DNA from: Verrucomicrobiaceae bacterium
GTDB lineage: Bacteria; Verrucomicrobiota; Verrucomicrobiia; Verrucomicrobiales; Verrucomicrobiaceae
DNA length: 64,000 bases
Direction: 5' to 3'
NCBI GenBank assembly: GCA_016795485.1
Contig: JAEUHM010000046.1
Location: forward strand, 1 to 64,000
The notes beneath the pieces are model-generated. The model worked only from the letters and a program-made list of their open reading frames with translations, was not told the DNA's origin and did not search any database. Below, piece after piece: positions 17,691 through 22,907 of this stretch (within the stretch, counting starts at the first letter, position 1; each line of letters begins with the position of its first letter). The position numbers and the translations under genes were made by a program.

Positions 17691-18953
17691 TCACGCCATG
17701 TCCAGCCCGGTGAGCGTGCCGGTGCTGGTGCCAAACCTATCCTCCTCGATGCCGAGGCGCTGGAGCATGTTGACGAAGAGATTGCAGAGCGGCGGCGGAT
17801 TGTCGGGATCGAAGGCGAGATGCTGGCCGTGGCGGAAGCCGCCTCCGGCGAGCAGGACGGGCAGATTTTTCGTCGAGTGGCTGCTTCCATCGCCGAGATT
17901 GCTGCCGAGGAAGACGGTGGTGCGGTCGAGCAGGTTTGAATCGGCCTCTTGCGACTGCTTGAGCTTCGTGAGCAGGTCGCGCAGGGTTTTCATCGTCTCC
18001 TGTTCGACGATCTGGAGCTGGGCGAGCTTGCTCGGATCTTTGCCGTGATGCGAGAGATCGTGATGGCCGAGCGAGACGCCTTCAATCGGCGGCACCTGCG
18101 TGTTGCCCGCGAGCATGATGGTGATGAGCCGCGTGGAGTCGGTTTGCAGCGCGAGATGACTGAGATCAAACAGCAAGCGCGTGCGGCCGATGAGGTCGGC
18201 GGCGTTCTGGATGTCCTGCGGCGGCTTCGCGTTGATCTTGGGCTTCGGCTTCTTTGCCCAGCTCTCGTCATTGACCATGCGCTGCTCCAACTCGCGCACG
18301 CTGGTGAGGTATTCGTCGAGCTTGTCGCGGTCCTCGCTGCCGAGGCCGGAGATGAGCGATTTCGCCTGTGCACGCACATCATCAAGGATGCTGCGACCGT
18401 CTTCCAGCCGACGCATATGCTGCGCCACCTCGCTCGCCTCGCCATCGAGGAAAAGCCGGGCAAAGACCTTCGACGGCGAGTTGTCCGCCGGGATCAAAGC
18501 GCCTGTGCGCGTCCAAGAAAGGCCGCCGGAACCTTCGCCCGACAGCACGAGGCTGGGAAAACGTGTCTGCGTGCCGATGTGCTCGGCAGCGAACTGGTCG
18601 AGCGAGACCGCATTGCGAAAGCCCGGCCTCCCTGCGCCAGGTGCGCCGGTCAAAAAGCTGGCCGAGGCCTGATGCGCGAAGCTGGAGCCCATGCCCGCGT
18701 GTTGCAGGCCGGAGATCACCGTGAAGTCGTCGCGGTGATCTTTGAGGATGTCGAGGTAGGTCGAGAGCTCGTAGCCCTTGCCCGGCTGCTTCGGAAAGAA
18801 GTGCTCCGGATAAAAGCCCAGCGGCGCGCAGATGCAGATCATGCGGCGTGGCGTCTGCGCAGCACTCGCAGCATGGCCGACGGAGAACTTGTCCAGCCAT
18901 GGAAGGGCCAAAGAGATGCCGGTGGTGCGGAGGAAGTGGCGGCGGGTTTTCAT
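17691..18953 (-). CDS. DUF1552 family secreted protein
   Basis: This 420-residue protein carries a Tat-like signal (MKTRRHFLRTTGISLALPWLDKF) and the full DUF1552 body: RRMICICAPLGFYPEHFFP, the SGLQHAGMGSSFAHQASASFL region with a conserved His, the EQRM...W segment and the ending TVFLGSNLGDGSSHSTKNLP. DUF1552 proteins are common in planctomycetes and verrucomicrobia, nearly always beside DUF1592 haem-type proteins; their reaction is unknown, though the fold is related to alkaline-phosphatase-like DUF1501. Here the DUF1592 gene lies upstream, separated by the inverted-repeat element with the four-helix-bundle gene. Confidence 0.9.
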   Translation of the reverse strand: MKTRRHFLRTTGISLALPWLDKFSVGHAASAAQTPRRMICICAPLGFYPEHFFPKQPGKGYELSTYLDILKDHRDDFTVISGLQHAGMGSSFAHQASASFLTGAPGAGRPGFRNAVSLDQFAAEHIGTQTRFPSLVLSGEGSGGLSWTRTGALIPADNSPSKVFARLFLDGEASEVAQHMRRLEDGRSILDDVRAQAKSLISGLGSEDRDKLDEYLTSVRELEQRMVNDESWAKKPKPKINAKPPQDIQNAADLIGRTRLLFDLSHLALQTDSTRLITIMLAGNTQVPPIEGVSLGHHDLSHHGKDPSKLAQLQIVEQETMKTLRDLLTKLKQSQEADSNLLDRTTVFLGSNLGDGSSHSTKNLPVLLAGGGFRHGQHLAFDPDNPPPLCNLFVNMLQRLGIEEDRFGTSTGTLTGLDMA

Positions 18954-18963
18954 AAGGCAAGGG

Positions 18964-18996
18964 GACAATCAGACAATGAGACAGGGAGACAATGAG
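18964..18996. repeat. Left 33-base inverted repeat of the four-helix-bundle element
   Basis: The sequence consists of degenerate gacaatSaga units. It is the reverse complement of bases 19412-19444 at 31 of 33 positions. It ends one base from the stop codon of the enclosed gene. Confidence 0.85.
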
Positions 18997-18997
18997 G

Positions 18998-19411
18998 TTA
19001 GCGCTTGGTGAGACACCATTTTTCGGGGTGGTTTTGCATCGTTAGCAGCATGGCGATGATCTGGTCGTATTCGGCGTAAAGGGGACGAGCGACGTCTGCC
19101 TTGATGTAACCACATTCGACAGCGAACTGGAGCCACGTTTGAGTTTCAGCGGCTTCGCCTTCAGCATCGTTGAGCTTGCTCACAAAAGAAGCGGCATAGC
19201 GTCGCCTTCGCCATGCCTCGGTGATGTTTGCCGCCACGGAACGAGAGGAACGGCGGCACTGATCCGTCAGCGAATACATCTCTTCCACGGGGAACGATTT
19301 GCTCAGACCAAACAAGTTCATCGCCGTCGAAAAGGCCCGCTGATACACGTCCAAATCCGTGTGGCGCGTGATCTTTGTCTTCCGATTGGCAGATTGGCTC
19401 GTGTCTTTCAT
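18998..19411 (-). CDS. Four-helix-bundle protein (23S rRNA-intervening-sequence protein family)
   Basis: A 137-residue protein with the family pattern: DLDVYQRAFSTAMNLFGLSK, FPVEEMYSLTDQCRRSSRSV, AANITEAWRRRR and the final helices with CGYI and LLTMQNHPEKW. The family (PF05635/TIGR02436) was first seen inside 23S rRNA intervening sequences and is related in fold to Avd of diversity-generating retroelements; free-standing copies like this one have no known function. The start codon abuts one inverted-repeat arm, and the GGGAG within that arm at a suitable distance may act as its ribosome binding site. The composition and context suggest insertion into a DUF1592-DUF1552 operon. Confidence 0.88.
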   Translation of the reverse strand: MKDTSQSANRKTKITRHTDLDVYQRAFSTAMNLFGLSKSFPVEEMYSLTDQCRRSSRSVAANITEAWRRRRYAASFVSKLNDAEGEAAETQTWLQFAVECGYIKADVARPLYAEYDQIIAMLLTMQNHPEKWCLTKR

Positions 19412-19444
19412 CTCATGGTCTCCCTGTCTGATTGTCTGATTGTC
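19412..19444. repeat. Right 33-base inverted repeat of the four-helix-bundle element
   Basis: This arm is the reverse complement of bases 18964-18996 at 31 of 33 positions. Read on the minus strand it contains gacaatcagacagggaga, a stretch found identically in the palindrome inside DUF1592. Confidence 0.85.
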
Positions 19445-19450
19445 TGATCG

Positions 19451-21931
19451 TCACTTCGTCTGAAACAAGTCGCTCTGCACGACCTCGTGGATCAACGATT
19501 TGAATCCGTGGTTTTTGGCACGGACGCGGGAGACGATGGCTGCGATCTGCGCATCACCGGTGGTCGTGGGGGCCGCGCCGGTGCCGTAGGTGAGCAGTTT
19601 TTCGGCGAGGTTGCGGGCGAGCTGGTCTTTGTGTTCCAAGAGCAGTTGCTTGTAGTCGTCGATGTTTTCAAAGCGGCGGCCATCGGGCGTAATATCGCCG
19701 GGCTCCACAGCGGGACCGTCCCAGAAGCGGCGGCGGCGGCCATCAATGATGCGTGGCTCGCCGGTGGCGCGGTAGTGGGTGCGCCAGCCGCCGATGACAT
19801 CAAAGCTCTCCAGCGCGAAGCCGGGCGGATCAATCTTCTTGTGGCAGCTCGCGCAGCTTTCGACATTGCGATGTTTCGCAAGCTGCTCGCGGATGGTGGT
19901 GGCACCGCGGATGTCCGGTTCGATGGCCTCGACATCCGGCGGCGGTTTCGGCGGCGGCGTGCCGAGGATGCGCTCAAGAACCCAGGAGCCACGGATGATG
20001 GGCGAGGTGGTCGTGCCATTCGCCGTCACTTTGAGAATGCTGCCCATGGTGAGCAAGCCACCGCGATGGCTGCCGGGTGGCAGCAGGACTTTGATGAGAC
20101 GGTTCGACAATGAGACAATCAGAGGAGGAGACAATGAGAGGTCCGCATCGACGGCCTTCTCCCTGTCTGATTGTCTCATGGTCTCATTGTCTGATAGTCT
20201 TTGCAGCTCAGCCTGATAAGCCTTGGTCAGTCCATAATGCCTCGCGAGGCGCTCATTGAGGAAGGTGAAGTCAGAGTGGACGAAGTTCGTCAGCGGCAGG
20301 TCGTGATGCAGGACCTCATCAAAAAAGAGCGTGGTCTCCTTGAGCATCGCGGTCTTGAGGATGTCGTCATACTCGGGGTAGAGCGTGCGGTCCGGCAGCG
20401 TGGCGTCGATGGCGCGCAGGCTCAGCCACTGGCCGGTGAAGTCCTCGGTGAACGCACGAGCCTTCGGATCGCGCAGCAAGCGCTCGACCTGACTGCGCAG
20501 CACGGCGGGATCATGCAGTTGGTTCGCGGCGGCCAGCTTAAGAAGCTCCTCATCGGGCATCGAGCTCCAAAGGAAGTAGGAAAGCCGGCTCGCCAGCTCG
20601 AAGTCGTTCAGCTTGGGACCGCGTTCGCGCAGGAAGAGGAAGTCCGGTGAGACCAGGATGCCTTTGAAGCCCAGACGCATGGCCTGCTCAAAGCTGCGGC
20701 CACCTTCCAACGCACCACGAACGCGTGCGAGGAAAGGCTGGATCTCGGCTGTGGACACTGGACGACGAAACGCGCGACGAGCGAAATCCGTGAGCAGGCG
20801 CTCCGCATCGGCCACCGGTTGTGCGGACATGACTTCGTAGCGTTCGCGCTCGACGCGCTCCTGCTTGAGGTCGCCAAACAAGGCGCAGTGACTCGGCGGC
20901 GGCCAGGACTCGAGCAGCGGACCCTCGATGTCCACCCACTGCACCACGAGTCCCGGGCCTTTGTAGTTCTCCGCGCCGACCTGCTGCACCTGCGGCGGCG
21001 TGGCGGGCAGGCCTTCCGCGAGAATGCGGATGCGGTTCTCCGGCTCAAGCTGTTCGGTGAACTCGATCACCGTCGGCTTGTCCTGTGGCACGGCGAAGTA
21101 GCCCACGAGTCGCTCCTCGGTGACCTCTTTCAACGTGCCAGCGGTGACGCGGTAGGTGACGGGCTTGCCGTCGTTTTGAATGGCGTAGGCCGAAATGCGG
21201 AAGCGATATCTGCCGCGGACATGGCTGCGGAAGTTCCACATCGTGACGCGGATGTTCGCCGACTCCCAGGCAGCGAAGATGGCCACGCCGTCCGGCACGT
21301 AGCGATACACGCTGCCGTTTGGCTTCACGGTGCGCTCGTCTTTGATGTCGAAGCGTTTGTTCAAGATCCACGGCTTCGGTTTGCTGGCGATGGCCTCGTT
21401 CAGCGCGCGATCTGCGGCATCGAGGTAGTTGCGCAGCAGATGCGAGGAGGTGTGCAGCAGCTCCGCGTTGTTGTCGAAGCCGTTGGTCGAGGTGTCAGGC
21501 GGCAGCAGGTCGGCGAGGTCCACCTCCACGCCGAGCAGGTCGCGCATCGTATTCGCATACTCGGCGCGATTCAGCCGCCGCAGCACCACGCGGCCTTCCT
21601 TGGCGCGGCGAGCGAGCTCCACCGCATCCACCTGGCCGCGAATCCATTTTATGGCCGTGCTGGCATCCTGCTCAGACGGACGCGGCTTGTCCTCTGGCGG
21701 CATGTCTCCACTTTCGATCTGTTCCAGCACGCGCTGCCAGTGCTCGCGATTGCTGGCCACGCTGAAGTCCGTGCTCAGCTTGGTGAGGTCAAACTTGCCC
21801 TTCGGTTTCTCGCCGGAATGGCATTTCTCGCAGTGCTGCGCGAAAAACGGTGGCAGTTGCTGTGCACCGGCACGCGCGAGTCCAATCAGGAGCAAGGCAA
21901 ACGCAGGAAGGATGGCACGCCGGGAGAACAT
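19451..21931 (-). CDS. DUF1592/DUF1588 cytochrome-like secreted protein with in-frame repeat insertion
   Basis: This 826-residue protein has a signal peptide (MFSRRAILPAFALLLIGLARAGA) and then a PSCyt1-type haem motif (C34-EKC-H38), DUF1587 (RRLNRAEYANTMRDLLGV), DUF1595, DUF1592 (ELASRLSYFLWSSMPDEEL), DUF1588 (CASCHKKIDPPGFALESFD) and DUF1585 at the C-terminus. The second CxxCH lies in DUF1588. These PVC-specific proteins are predicted extracytoplasmic c-type cytochromes of unknown reaction. The segment SDNETMRQSDREKAV...PPLIVSLSN, just before KVLLPPGSHRGG, is encoded by an inverted repeat related to the element 660 bases downstream. The other DUF1592 protein in this window has nothing there. 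The start at 21931 lies 7 bases after the preceding stop. Confidence 0.92.
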   Translation of the reverse strand: MFSRRAILPAFALLLIGLARAGAQQLPPFFAQHCEKCHSGEKPKGKFDLTKLSTDFSVASNREHWQRVLEQIESGDMPPEDKPRPSEQDASTAIKWIRGQVDAVELARRAKEGRVVLRRLNRAEYANTMRDLLGVEVDLADLLPPDTSTNGFDNNAELLHTSSHLLRNYLDAADRALNEAIASKPKPWILNKRFDIKDERTVKPNGSVYRYVPDGVAIFAAWESANIRVTMWNFRSHVRGRYRFRISAYAIQNDGKPVTYRVTAGTLKEVTEERLVGYFAVPQDKPTVIEFTEQLEPENRIRILAEGLPATPPQVQQVGAENYKGPGLVVQWVDIEGPLLESWPPPSHCALFGDLKQERVERERYEVMSAQPVADAERLLTDFARRAFRRPVSTAEIQPFLARVRGALEGGRSFEQAMRLGFKGILVSPDFLFLRERGPKLNDFELASRLSYFLWSSMPDEELLKLAAANQLHDPAVLRSQVERLLRDPKARAFTEDFTGQWLSLRAIDATLPDRTLYPEYDDILKTAMLKETTLFFDEVLHHDLPLTNFVHSDFTFLNERLARHYGLTKAYQAELQRLSDNETMRQSDREKAVDADLSLSPPLIVSLSNRLIKVLLPPGSHRGGLLTMGSILKVTANGTTTSPIIRGSWVLERILGTPPPKPPPDVEAIEPDIRGATTIREQLAKHRNVESCASCHKKIDPPGFALESFDVIGGWRTHYRATGEPRIIDGRRRRFWDGPAVEPGDITPDGRRFENIDDYKQLLLEHKDQLARNLAEKLLTYGTGAAPTTTGDAQIAAIVSRVRAKNHGFKSLIHEVVQSDLFQTK
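20106..20199. repeat. MITE-like palindrome inside the DUF1592 coding region
   Basis: The left half (20106-20138) matches the left arm of the four-helix-bundle element at 28 of 33 positions. The right half (about 20158-20199) contains the reverse complement of the shared 18-base core gacaatcagacagggaga. Only about 19 bases lie between the halves. The reading frame is kept on the minus strand, adding roughly 31 residues to the host protein. Confidence 0.8.
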
Positions 21932-21938
21932 GACAGCA

Positions 21939-22907
21939 TCAACGCTTTGAAACCGGCCCGACATACTCCGTGGCGATCACAATGTCGTCGAACCACACGC
22001 GATTGGTCTTCGGCGGGTTCGCGACGTTGTTTTGGCGGTAGGCGTTTTCGGTGACGTAGTGGCTGAGCATGAAATAGCTCACGGCGAGCTCGGGGACGGT
22101 GCGCCAGCGGAAGCCTTCGAAGGTGCTTTCGCCGTCTTTCGCGACCTGGAAGCCTTCGCCGGTCCATTTGCCGGTCTTTGTGCCGGGGCCGATGTGTGTG
22201 GTGAGTTTGCCATTGAGCCACAGGGCCAGCTCGCCATCGCTTTTGCCGATGTCATTGCACTTCACCATGATCTCGACGCATTGCCACTGACCGCGTGGAG
22301 GGCCGGGGCGGCCTTCGGGCCACAGTCCGTTGCCCCAGAAGCCGCCATCGGCGCTTTGCTTCATGTCTTGCCAGTAGGTGTAAAACATCCAGCCGCCCGG
22401 CGCGGCGAGCGTGCCGTAGCTGCCATTCGGCTCGATGCGGGCGCTGAAGCGCGTGTCGCCCGCCGCGTGCTTGCCAGCGGAGCCCTGCGGCCAGTTCGTG
22501 GGTGGATTGTAGCCACCGAGGCCGCTGAAGTGATGCAAGTAAGGCGCGTCCTCCGCAAACTTCACATAGAAGCGCGAGAAGACGCGAGTCTGGATGGGAT
22601 CGATCCGCTTGAACAAATGCCCGCCGGTGTTCTCGCCGAGCGTAGCGGTGACCTGGAGGCATTTCGAGCCTGCGCTGGCCGCAGGATGCTCGTTTACGAT
22701 TTCGAGCACCTTGCCGTCCTTGTTCTCGATTTCATTCCAACGCGGCTTCAAGGCCTCCAGCGTTCCTTCTTCGAAATTTTCGGCGAGAAGCACCGCTGGA
22801 TGTTTTTCGATGCCTAAGTCATCAGGATGCTTTTGTGAGATGCCGTGGCCTTCAGGCAGTGGATCGAGCGCGAAGGCGGAACATGTGAGGAGGTAGAAGA
22901 GACGCAT
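21939..22907 (-). CDS. Secreted lectin-like / polysaccharide-lyase-like protein
   Basis: A 322-residue protein begins with a short signal (MRLFYLLTCSAFA) and has a beta-sandwich look: NFEEGTLEALKPRWNEIEN, KRIDPIQTRVFSRFYVKFAED, WQCVEIMVKCND and RVWFDDIVIATEYVGP are typical strands of concanavalin-A-like jelly rolls found in polysaccharide lyases and LamG-type proteins. No catalytic residues could be assigned. It lies between DUF1501 and DUF1592 genes with only 7-19 bases on either side, which suggests one operon. A role in binding or cutting a polysaccharide is plausible in view of the pectate-lyase-like protein in the same run. Confidence 0.7.
   Translation of the reverse strand: MRLFYLLTCSAFALDPLPEGHGISQKHPDDLGIEKHPAVLLAENFEEGTLEALKPRWNEIENKDGKVLEIVNEHPAASAGSKCLQVTATLGENTGGHLFKRIDPIQTRVFSRFYVKFAEDAPYLHHFSGLGGYNPPTNWPQGSAGKHAAGDTRFSARIEPNGSYGTLAAPGGWMFYTYWQDMKQSADGGFWGNGLWPEGRPGPPRGQWQCVEIMVKCNDIGKSDGELALWLNGKLTTHIGPGTKTGKWTGEGFQVAKDGESTFEGFRWRTVPELAVSYFMLSHYVTENAYRQNNVANPPKTNRVWFDDIVIATEYVGPVSKR

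Follow-up and report, generated by a model that had tools for sequence, protein, structure and literature searches.

Four-helix IVP genes are bounded by inverted arms of short tandem units that vary with the protein lineage

Inverted arms built of 7-11-nt tandem units are the general rule for IVP genes (PF05635) in at least 15 phyla, and the type of unit is inherited within IVP lineages. Based on these data, we suggest that an IVP unit is probably one half of a protein-repeat pair that is organized like REP/RAYT, with a partner protein that is not a transposase. The window, i.e. the whole stretch of 64,000 nt that was analyzed, carries one such unit between two genes of an operon with the following features:

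17691 to 18953, minus strand: DUF1552 gene, downstream neighbour of the IVP gene, taken to start at the conserved ATG at 18953
18954 to 19450, no strand: whole inserted unit, from the DUF1592 stop codon to the DUF1552 ATG
18964 to 18996, plus strand: downstream arm, an inverted copy (31/33) of the upstream arm, 1 nt past the IVP stop codon
18998 to 19411, minus strand: IVP gene (PF05635) for a four-helix protein of 137 aa, by Pfam match and fold prediction
19412 to 19444, minus strand: upstream arm with units of AGAC followed by AATC, AGGG or CATG on the gene strand; abuts the ATG and holds GGGAG
19420 to 19424, minus strand: GGGAG, Shine-Dalgarno-like, within an arm unit and 8 nt 5' of the IVP ATG
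19451 to 21964, minus strand: DUF1592 (PSD4), cytochrome-type gene, upstream operon neighbour of the IVP gene
20105 to 20200, no strand: gene-less hairpin of AGACAATS units, in frame inside DUF1592 (LSDNETMRQSDREKAV...SLSPPLIVSLS)

The two arms of the window unit are 33 nt each, 94% complementary (31/33) and 415 nt apart. They consist of 4-5 tandem copies of the degenerate 8-mer AGACAATS (AGAC+AATS), in which the variable half after AGAC is AATC, AATG, AGGG or CATG, and the tandem units of the upstream arm extend to ~19450, reaching the DUF1592 stop codon. This arm pair has an inverted-repeat score of 28, whereas 300 shuffles average 8.4 and reach no more than 14, and none of 32 other ORFs in the window exceeds 11. 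The initial annotation of this DNA had described the arms with their 31/33 inverted identity, their fit to the start codon on one side and to within one base of the stop codon on the other, and a GGGAG at the position of a ribosome binding site in the start-side arm; the shuffles and the coordinates confirm all three, whereas the gene-less hairpin at 20105-20200 within DUF1592 had been overlooked. As tandem runs of a short unit with no unique sequence, the window arms differ from ordinary transposon ends. The longest ORF for DUF1552 starts at 18968; the ATG at 18953 is conserved in relatives and is more likely to be the true start and, if so, the inserted unit occupies the entire spacer between the DUF1592 stop and the DUF1552 start.

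The window IVP matches PF05635 with 106.6 bits (cut-off 33.8), and its predicted fold (pLDDT 93.5) superimposes on 2GSC, 2RLD and Avd (4DWL) with TM-scores by target length of 0.93, 0.85 and 0.90, respectively, in agreement with the earlier assignment of a 137-residue four-helix-bundle gene related in fold to Avd of diversity-generating retroelements (DGRs). Five chains are present in the crystal structure of each of two homologues (2GSC and 2RLD), and the window IVP is probably a pentamer as well. Its net charge is +4 (family median +2), and this modest value is a warning, as it is weak for a nucleic-acid binder. Between the window IVP and its counterpart in the related genome G028, dN/dS is about 0.16, i.e. 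the gene is under purifying selection. As noted in the initial annotation, no transposase is present among the ORFs and Pfam matches of the unit, in which only PF05635 was found. More generally, neither the IVP protein nor the unit has a transposase or nuclease signature or a match to a catalytic family, and the 99.87% complete genome has no match to the reverse transcriptase family PF00078 (RVT_1). While the predicted fold is the same as that of Avd, identity to Avd is 13%, and given that the genome lacks a reverse transcriptase, the IVP unit is not a DGR; DGR- or reverse transcriptase-driven copying in this genome was rejected on the same ground.

PF05635 genes are present in 51 of the 57 genomes of the order. 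Among the relatives, 88% of 86 IVP genes have inverted arms (score at least 12), whereas a control set of 86 other genes from these loci has them in 3.5% (p=1e-25), and the three exceptions among these controls bear units of the same repeat families. In a wider set, which spans at least 15 phyla and includes CPR as well as a Methanophagales archaeon, inverted arms (score at least 14) were found for 69% of 80 IVP genes and for 5% of controls (p=3e-20). The loci in both sets are the best-scoring matches and not a random sample, those from other phyla having been found in a profile search using a closer sequence set, so the percentages may fail for the PF05635 family as a whole. Of eight plasmid-borne IVPs (seven cyanobacterial loci and one from Gemmatirosa), seven lie between such arms; those of the cyanobacterial plasmids are bounded by GGGAACA-type heptamers, AGGGAACAGGGAACA being an example of this STRR kind, and the neighbours of the plasmid IVPs include cas6/cas4, cmr2/cmr3 and nrdB/nrdA. 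In the window genome, five of the seven IVP members above the cut-off and a weak sixth (L025) are between inverted arms, and each armed member has its own unit. The expectation that copies of the gene lie between such arms was, therefore, mostly borne out for the presence of arms but not for their sequence, and a single arm sequence for all IVP members of a genome was rejected. Likewise, the view of the window unit as a lone minimal transposon that is difficult to place gives way to an arrangement that is a rule of the family and has a close organizational parallel in REP/RAYT.

Among 125 arm pairs, 106 show a clear period, mostly of 7 or 14 nt and also of 8 and 10 nt, compared to 3/125 after shuffling. 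About 4-5 basic-period units were counted per arm; as counting was confined to the portion that aligns, "about five" is a loose figure. In 119/125 pairs the upstream arm is rich in AG/GG on the gene strand, and the median distance from arm to codon is 24 nt at the start and 7 nt at the stop. Arms are alike if the proteins are more than 60% identical and unrelated below 60% (Mantel, 0/999 permutations), and paralogs within one genome have unrelated arms (0.04). Across twelve members of one IVP lineage, the unit is GTTKGC, GTTKAC or GTTGAGC depending on the species, and both arms have switched together. Plain joint inheritance would likewise make gene and arms diverge together and explains part of the pairing pattern; the matched change of two separated arms goes beyond it.

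Gene order at the DUF1592-DUF1552 junction was compared in three relatives, G003, G013 and G028, with three different outcomes: (i) in G003, the junction is empty with 11 nt between the stop and start codons of the two genes, (ii) in G028, it is occupied by an IVP gene that is 90% identical to the window IVP and has the same arms, and (iii) in G013, it holds a different arm-bounded gene, which is of the GxxExxY family (PF13366; L094:1638-2045) and has arms built of TTTTCGGC-type units. The window unit is, therefore, an insertion. The comparison of occupied and empty junctions, an approach already proposed in the initial annotation, in this way supports its statement that the unit splits DUF1592 and DUF1552, the identity of which is confirmed by the Pfam matches of the flanking genes (DUF1592/PSD4 and DUF1552). 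Many IVP copies of the same lineage are found at one locus in relatives, as would be the case if the gene were simply fixed and its flanking repeats were due to chance or had no function; the shuffles, the control genes and the empty and replaced junctions in G003 and G013 refute this explanation, to which we give hardly any credence.

Between the window genome (G000) and G028, dS is 0.32 for the IVP gene, an approximate value from only 137 codons, compared to 0.89 and 1.02 for the neighbouring genes and 1.23 for the leucyl-tRNA synthetase gene (LeuRS). The lower value for the IVP gene suggests that its unit was exchanged later than the surroundings. For G013 and G028 (L094, L095), dS of DUF1592 and DUF1552 is about 0.26 while LeuRS is saturated, which indicates that the operon itself was exchanged between genera and calls for care in inferring mobility of the unit from this operon. 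Among 124 pairs of same-lineage IVPs from different genomes, both flanks are shared in 82, one flank in 33 and none in 9. Given that both flanks are shared in 82 of the 124 pairs, gene-bearing units are mostly stationary: most IVP gene copies are inherited vertically, and moves are rare. Hence, of the proposal of a mobile repeat-bounded unit, insertion is supported by the states of the junction, but most gene copies stay at one locus. A single-copy transposon was rejected in view of arms that vary by lineage and gene copies that are mostly vertical. As a side observation, a group II intron (RF02005) with a maturase ORF interrupts the right arm of the IVP unit in G028 (L095:3150-5200) and perhaps targets the hairpin.

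Inverted arms of short units are found around a second gene family. GxxExxY genes (PF13366, PD-(D/E)XK-type) have such arms in 77% of 30 loci (L153-L182) and use their own repeat class (AACCACGGAATACACGGAA / CACAGAGGCACAGAG); arms of this type are, therefore, not exclusive to IVP genes.

A search for the arm sequence with and without the gene, also suggested in the initial annotation, identified AGACAATS arms without a gene. The hairpin within DUF1592 is also present in G013 and G028 and is absent in G003, and many other gene-less hairpins are in frame within coding genes. An in-frame AGACAATS hairpin is present in LeuRS in 2 of 14 genomes and is absent in the other 12; it is 111 nt long and adds 37 residues in G028 (L323) and is 87 nt long and adds 29 residues in G029 (L327), the difference of 24 nt corresponding to three whole units. 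In the in-gene hairpins (window 20105-20200; L303-L310), the reverse arm mostly consists of CATTGTCT and not of GATTGTCT units, a choice by which TGA stop codons are avoided; the variable base of the AGACAATS unit, C or G, may reflect this avoidance. 

Inverted ends, gene-less derivatives and turnover at the junction are all features of an ordinary MITE or IS, the arms of which would be terminal inverted repeats that are moved by a transposase acting in trans. However, the arms are runs of short period that are different for every IVP lineage and their length varies by whole units, as in the two LeuRS inserts; moreover, no target duplication is recognizable at the DUF1592-DUF1552 junction or at the LeuRS sites, but the flanks have diverged at both. 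We consider this alternative very improbable.

Gene-less repeats are also scattered in the genomes. GTTKRC repeats, with up to 205 matches per genome, were found in 14/14 genomes with the cognate IVP lineage compared to 4/43 without it, with a p-value of 4e-10 that overstates the independence of these genomes because they are related; presence and absence of GTTKRC repeats and of the IVP lineage also vary within genus g9. Among the matches listed, 18 scattered gene-less GTTKRC pairs are convergent and 1 is divergent. The link is weaker for AGACAATS repeats, which were found in 3/3 genomes with a close cognate IVP and in 10/54 without one. Strict dependence of the repeat on the gene was, thus, rejected for AGACAATS, and the occurrence of AGACAATS in 10 and of GTTKRC in 4 genomes without the cognate gene suggests that the gene is not needed for keeping old copies. 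In G001, a reversed control pattern has 8 matches and the true AGACAATS pattern none; the former probably represent another repeat family. At L317 (G035:C94:7800-8800), AGACAATS units adjoin long GTTKRC arrays, i.e. repeat families pile up in shared spacers.

It could be argued that the hairpins are primary and spread by themselves, e.g. by replication slippage or template switching, and that IVP genes merely settle there. Gene-less hairpins are far more common than gene-bearing ones and exist in genomes without the cognate gene, and genes of the GxxExxY family likewise lie between short-unit arms, all of which fits this explanation; the lineage-specific pairing of protein and unit, the co-occurrence in 14/14 compared to 4/43 genomes, the purifying selection on the IVP gene, and an architecture and polarity that are the same across phyla do not, and we regard it as improbable.

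In the protein-repeat pair that we favor, the IVP pentamer would recognize its own units, perhaps in single-stranded DNA or in RNA and with each subunit contacting one unit. By analogy with TRAP, which reads NAG repeats as a ring, a five-fold ring reading tandem units would be an attractive model. By holding both arms, the IVP protein would help or allow its own hairpins to spread and be maintained while host replication and repair enzymes would do the cutting or copying; given that there is neither a transposase or nuclease signature nor a reverse transcriptase, this step would have to fall to host enzymes. Because the upstream arm carries the ribosome binding site, binding to the units would also allow autoregulation, the IVP protein bound to this arm limiting its own translation. 

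The chief rival is an element acting at the RNA level: the arms pair in the transcript, RNase III cuts the unit out of the polycistronic mRNA as in the case of rRNA intervening sequences (IVSs), the IVP protein autoregulates at the start-codon arm, and the hairpins elsewhere in the genome form a regulon or are RNA insertions that do no harm. The arms do pair in the predicted transcript, they are close to the start and stop codons (medians 24 and 7 nt) with the ribosome binding site inside an arm unit, IVP genes are often between operon genes, LeuRS and DUF1592 can accommodate hairpins in frame, and rRNA IVSs are excised by RNase III (PMC4990558). On its own, however, such an element leaves the scattered copies, the turnover at the junction and the exchange of units unexplained, and orientation relative to the operon varies, being opposite in nrdB-IVP-nrdA. 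We, therefore, find it unlikely as the sole explanation, while a role at the RNA level fits with the protein-repeat pair, in that the arm with the ribosome binding site could serve autoregulation and RNase III could cut where the arms pair.

REP/RAYT is the best match in organization. Every RAYT gene has an inverted pair of REPs around it, and the trees of repeat and protein agree (PMC2817692). Similarly, an IVP gene lies between two arms in inverted orientation whose repeat also occurs throughout the genome, and the repeat type co-diverges with the protein. In contrast to RAYTs, IVPs are four-helix proteins without a tyrosine (IS200/IS605-type) transposase domain, and IVP units are, therefore, not members of REP/RAYT; moreover, their repeats are runs of 7-11-nt units whereas REPs are single GC-rich palindromes, and IVP-type hairpins are also found in frame inside genes. 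The IVSs of 23S rRNA contain an S23p/IVP ORF that is enclosed by terminal inverted repeats, which are 28 bp long in Coxiella, are sporadic, and have been called selfish (PMC4990558). They share the protein family and the placement of the ORF between terminal inverted repeats with the window unit, which, however, is in an operon spacer outside 16S/23S rRNA and so does not qualify by location, and which has arms of tandem units and cognate gene-less copies elsewhere. A location in rRNA was rejected for the IVP genes sampled, as no Rfam match was found beside any of the 60 sampled IVP loci, and neither L001 nor L095 has an rRNA match.

Tandem heptamer repeats have been described in Xanthomonas (GGGAATC; PMC4692102), in Beggiatoaceae (TAACTGA; PMC4679880) and, as the STRR type, in cyanobacteria. 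These repeats resemble the IVP arms in being degenerate tandem units that are often near start codons, the comparison with Xanthomonas and Beggiatoaceae being by description, and the Xanthomonas heptamers form convergent pairs as do IVP-type hairpins. STRR-type units are 7 nt and the window unit is 8 nt; in the IVP family, 7 and 14 nt are the most common. The two papers on heptamer repeats (PMC4692102, PMC4679880) name no partner protein and mention no S23 or four-helix protein. In the open-licence literature, which excludes subscription papers and preprints, no link between IVP proteins and tandem heptamers is reported, and papers there on IVP proteins do not mention these repeats. Rickettsia palindromic elements, going by their description, are similar in that hairpins are inserted in frame within coding genes; we know of no partner protein for them.

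PF05635 is widespread and yet annotated just as "four helix bundle" or "S23" protein. Our data suggest that IVP proteins are the partners so far lacking for repeats that are strewn over many genomes. The pairing would tie orphan repeats of short tandem units, for which the descriptions from cyanobacteria, Xanthomonas and Beggiatoaceae give no partner, to a protein family, and the predicted ligand of any IVP could be read from the DNA adjoining its gene. If IVP proteins act on their units, the system would be a new class. A wider proposal, which we put forward tentatively, is that IVPs constitute a large unrecognized class of repeat-maintenance proteins with one tandem word per pentamer, which would explain many orphan heptamer-type repeats of bacteria and archaea as part of a selfish system with two components, by which hairpins spread although no transposase, nuclease or reverse transcriptase is encoded.

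IVP genes have previously been counted as CRISPR-associated (PMC3936711). On two cyanobacterial plasmids (L355, L358), arm-bounded IVP units are located between cas6 and cas4 and between cmr2 and cmr3, and units placed in this way between cas genes may explain that count.
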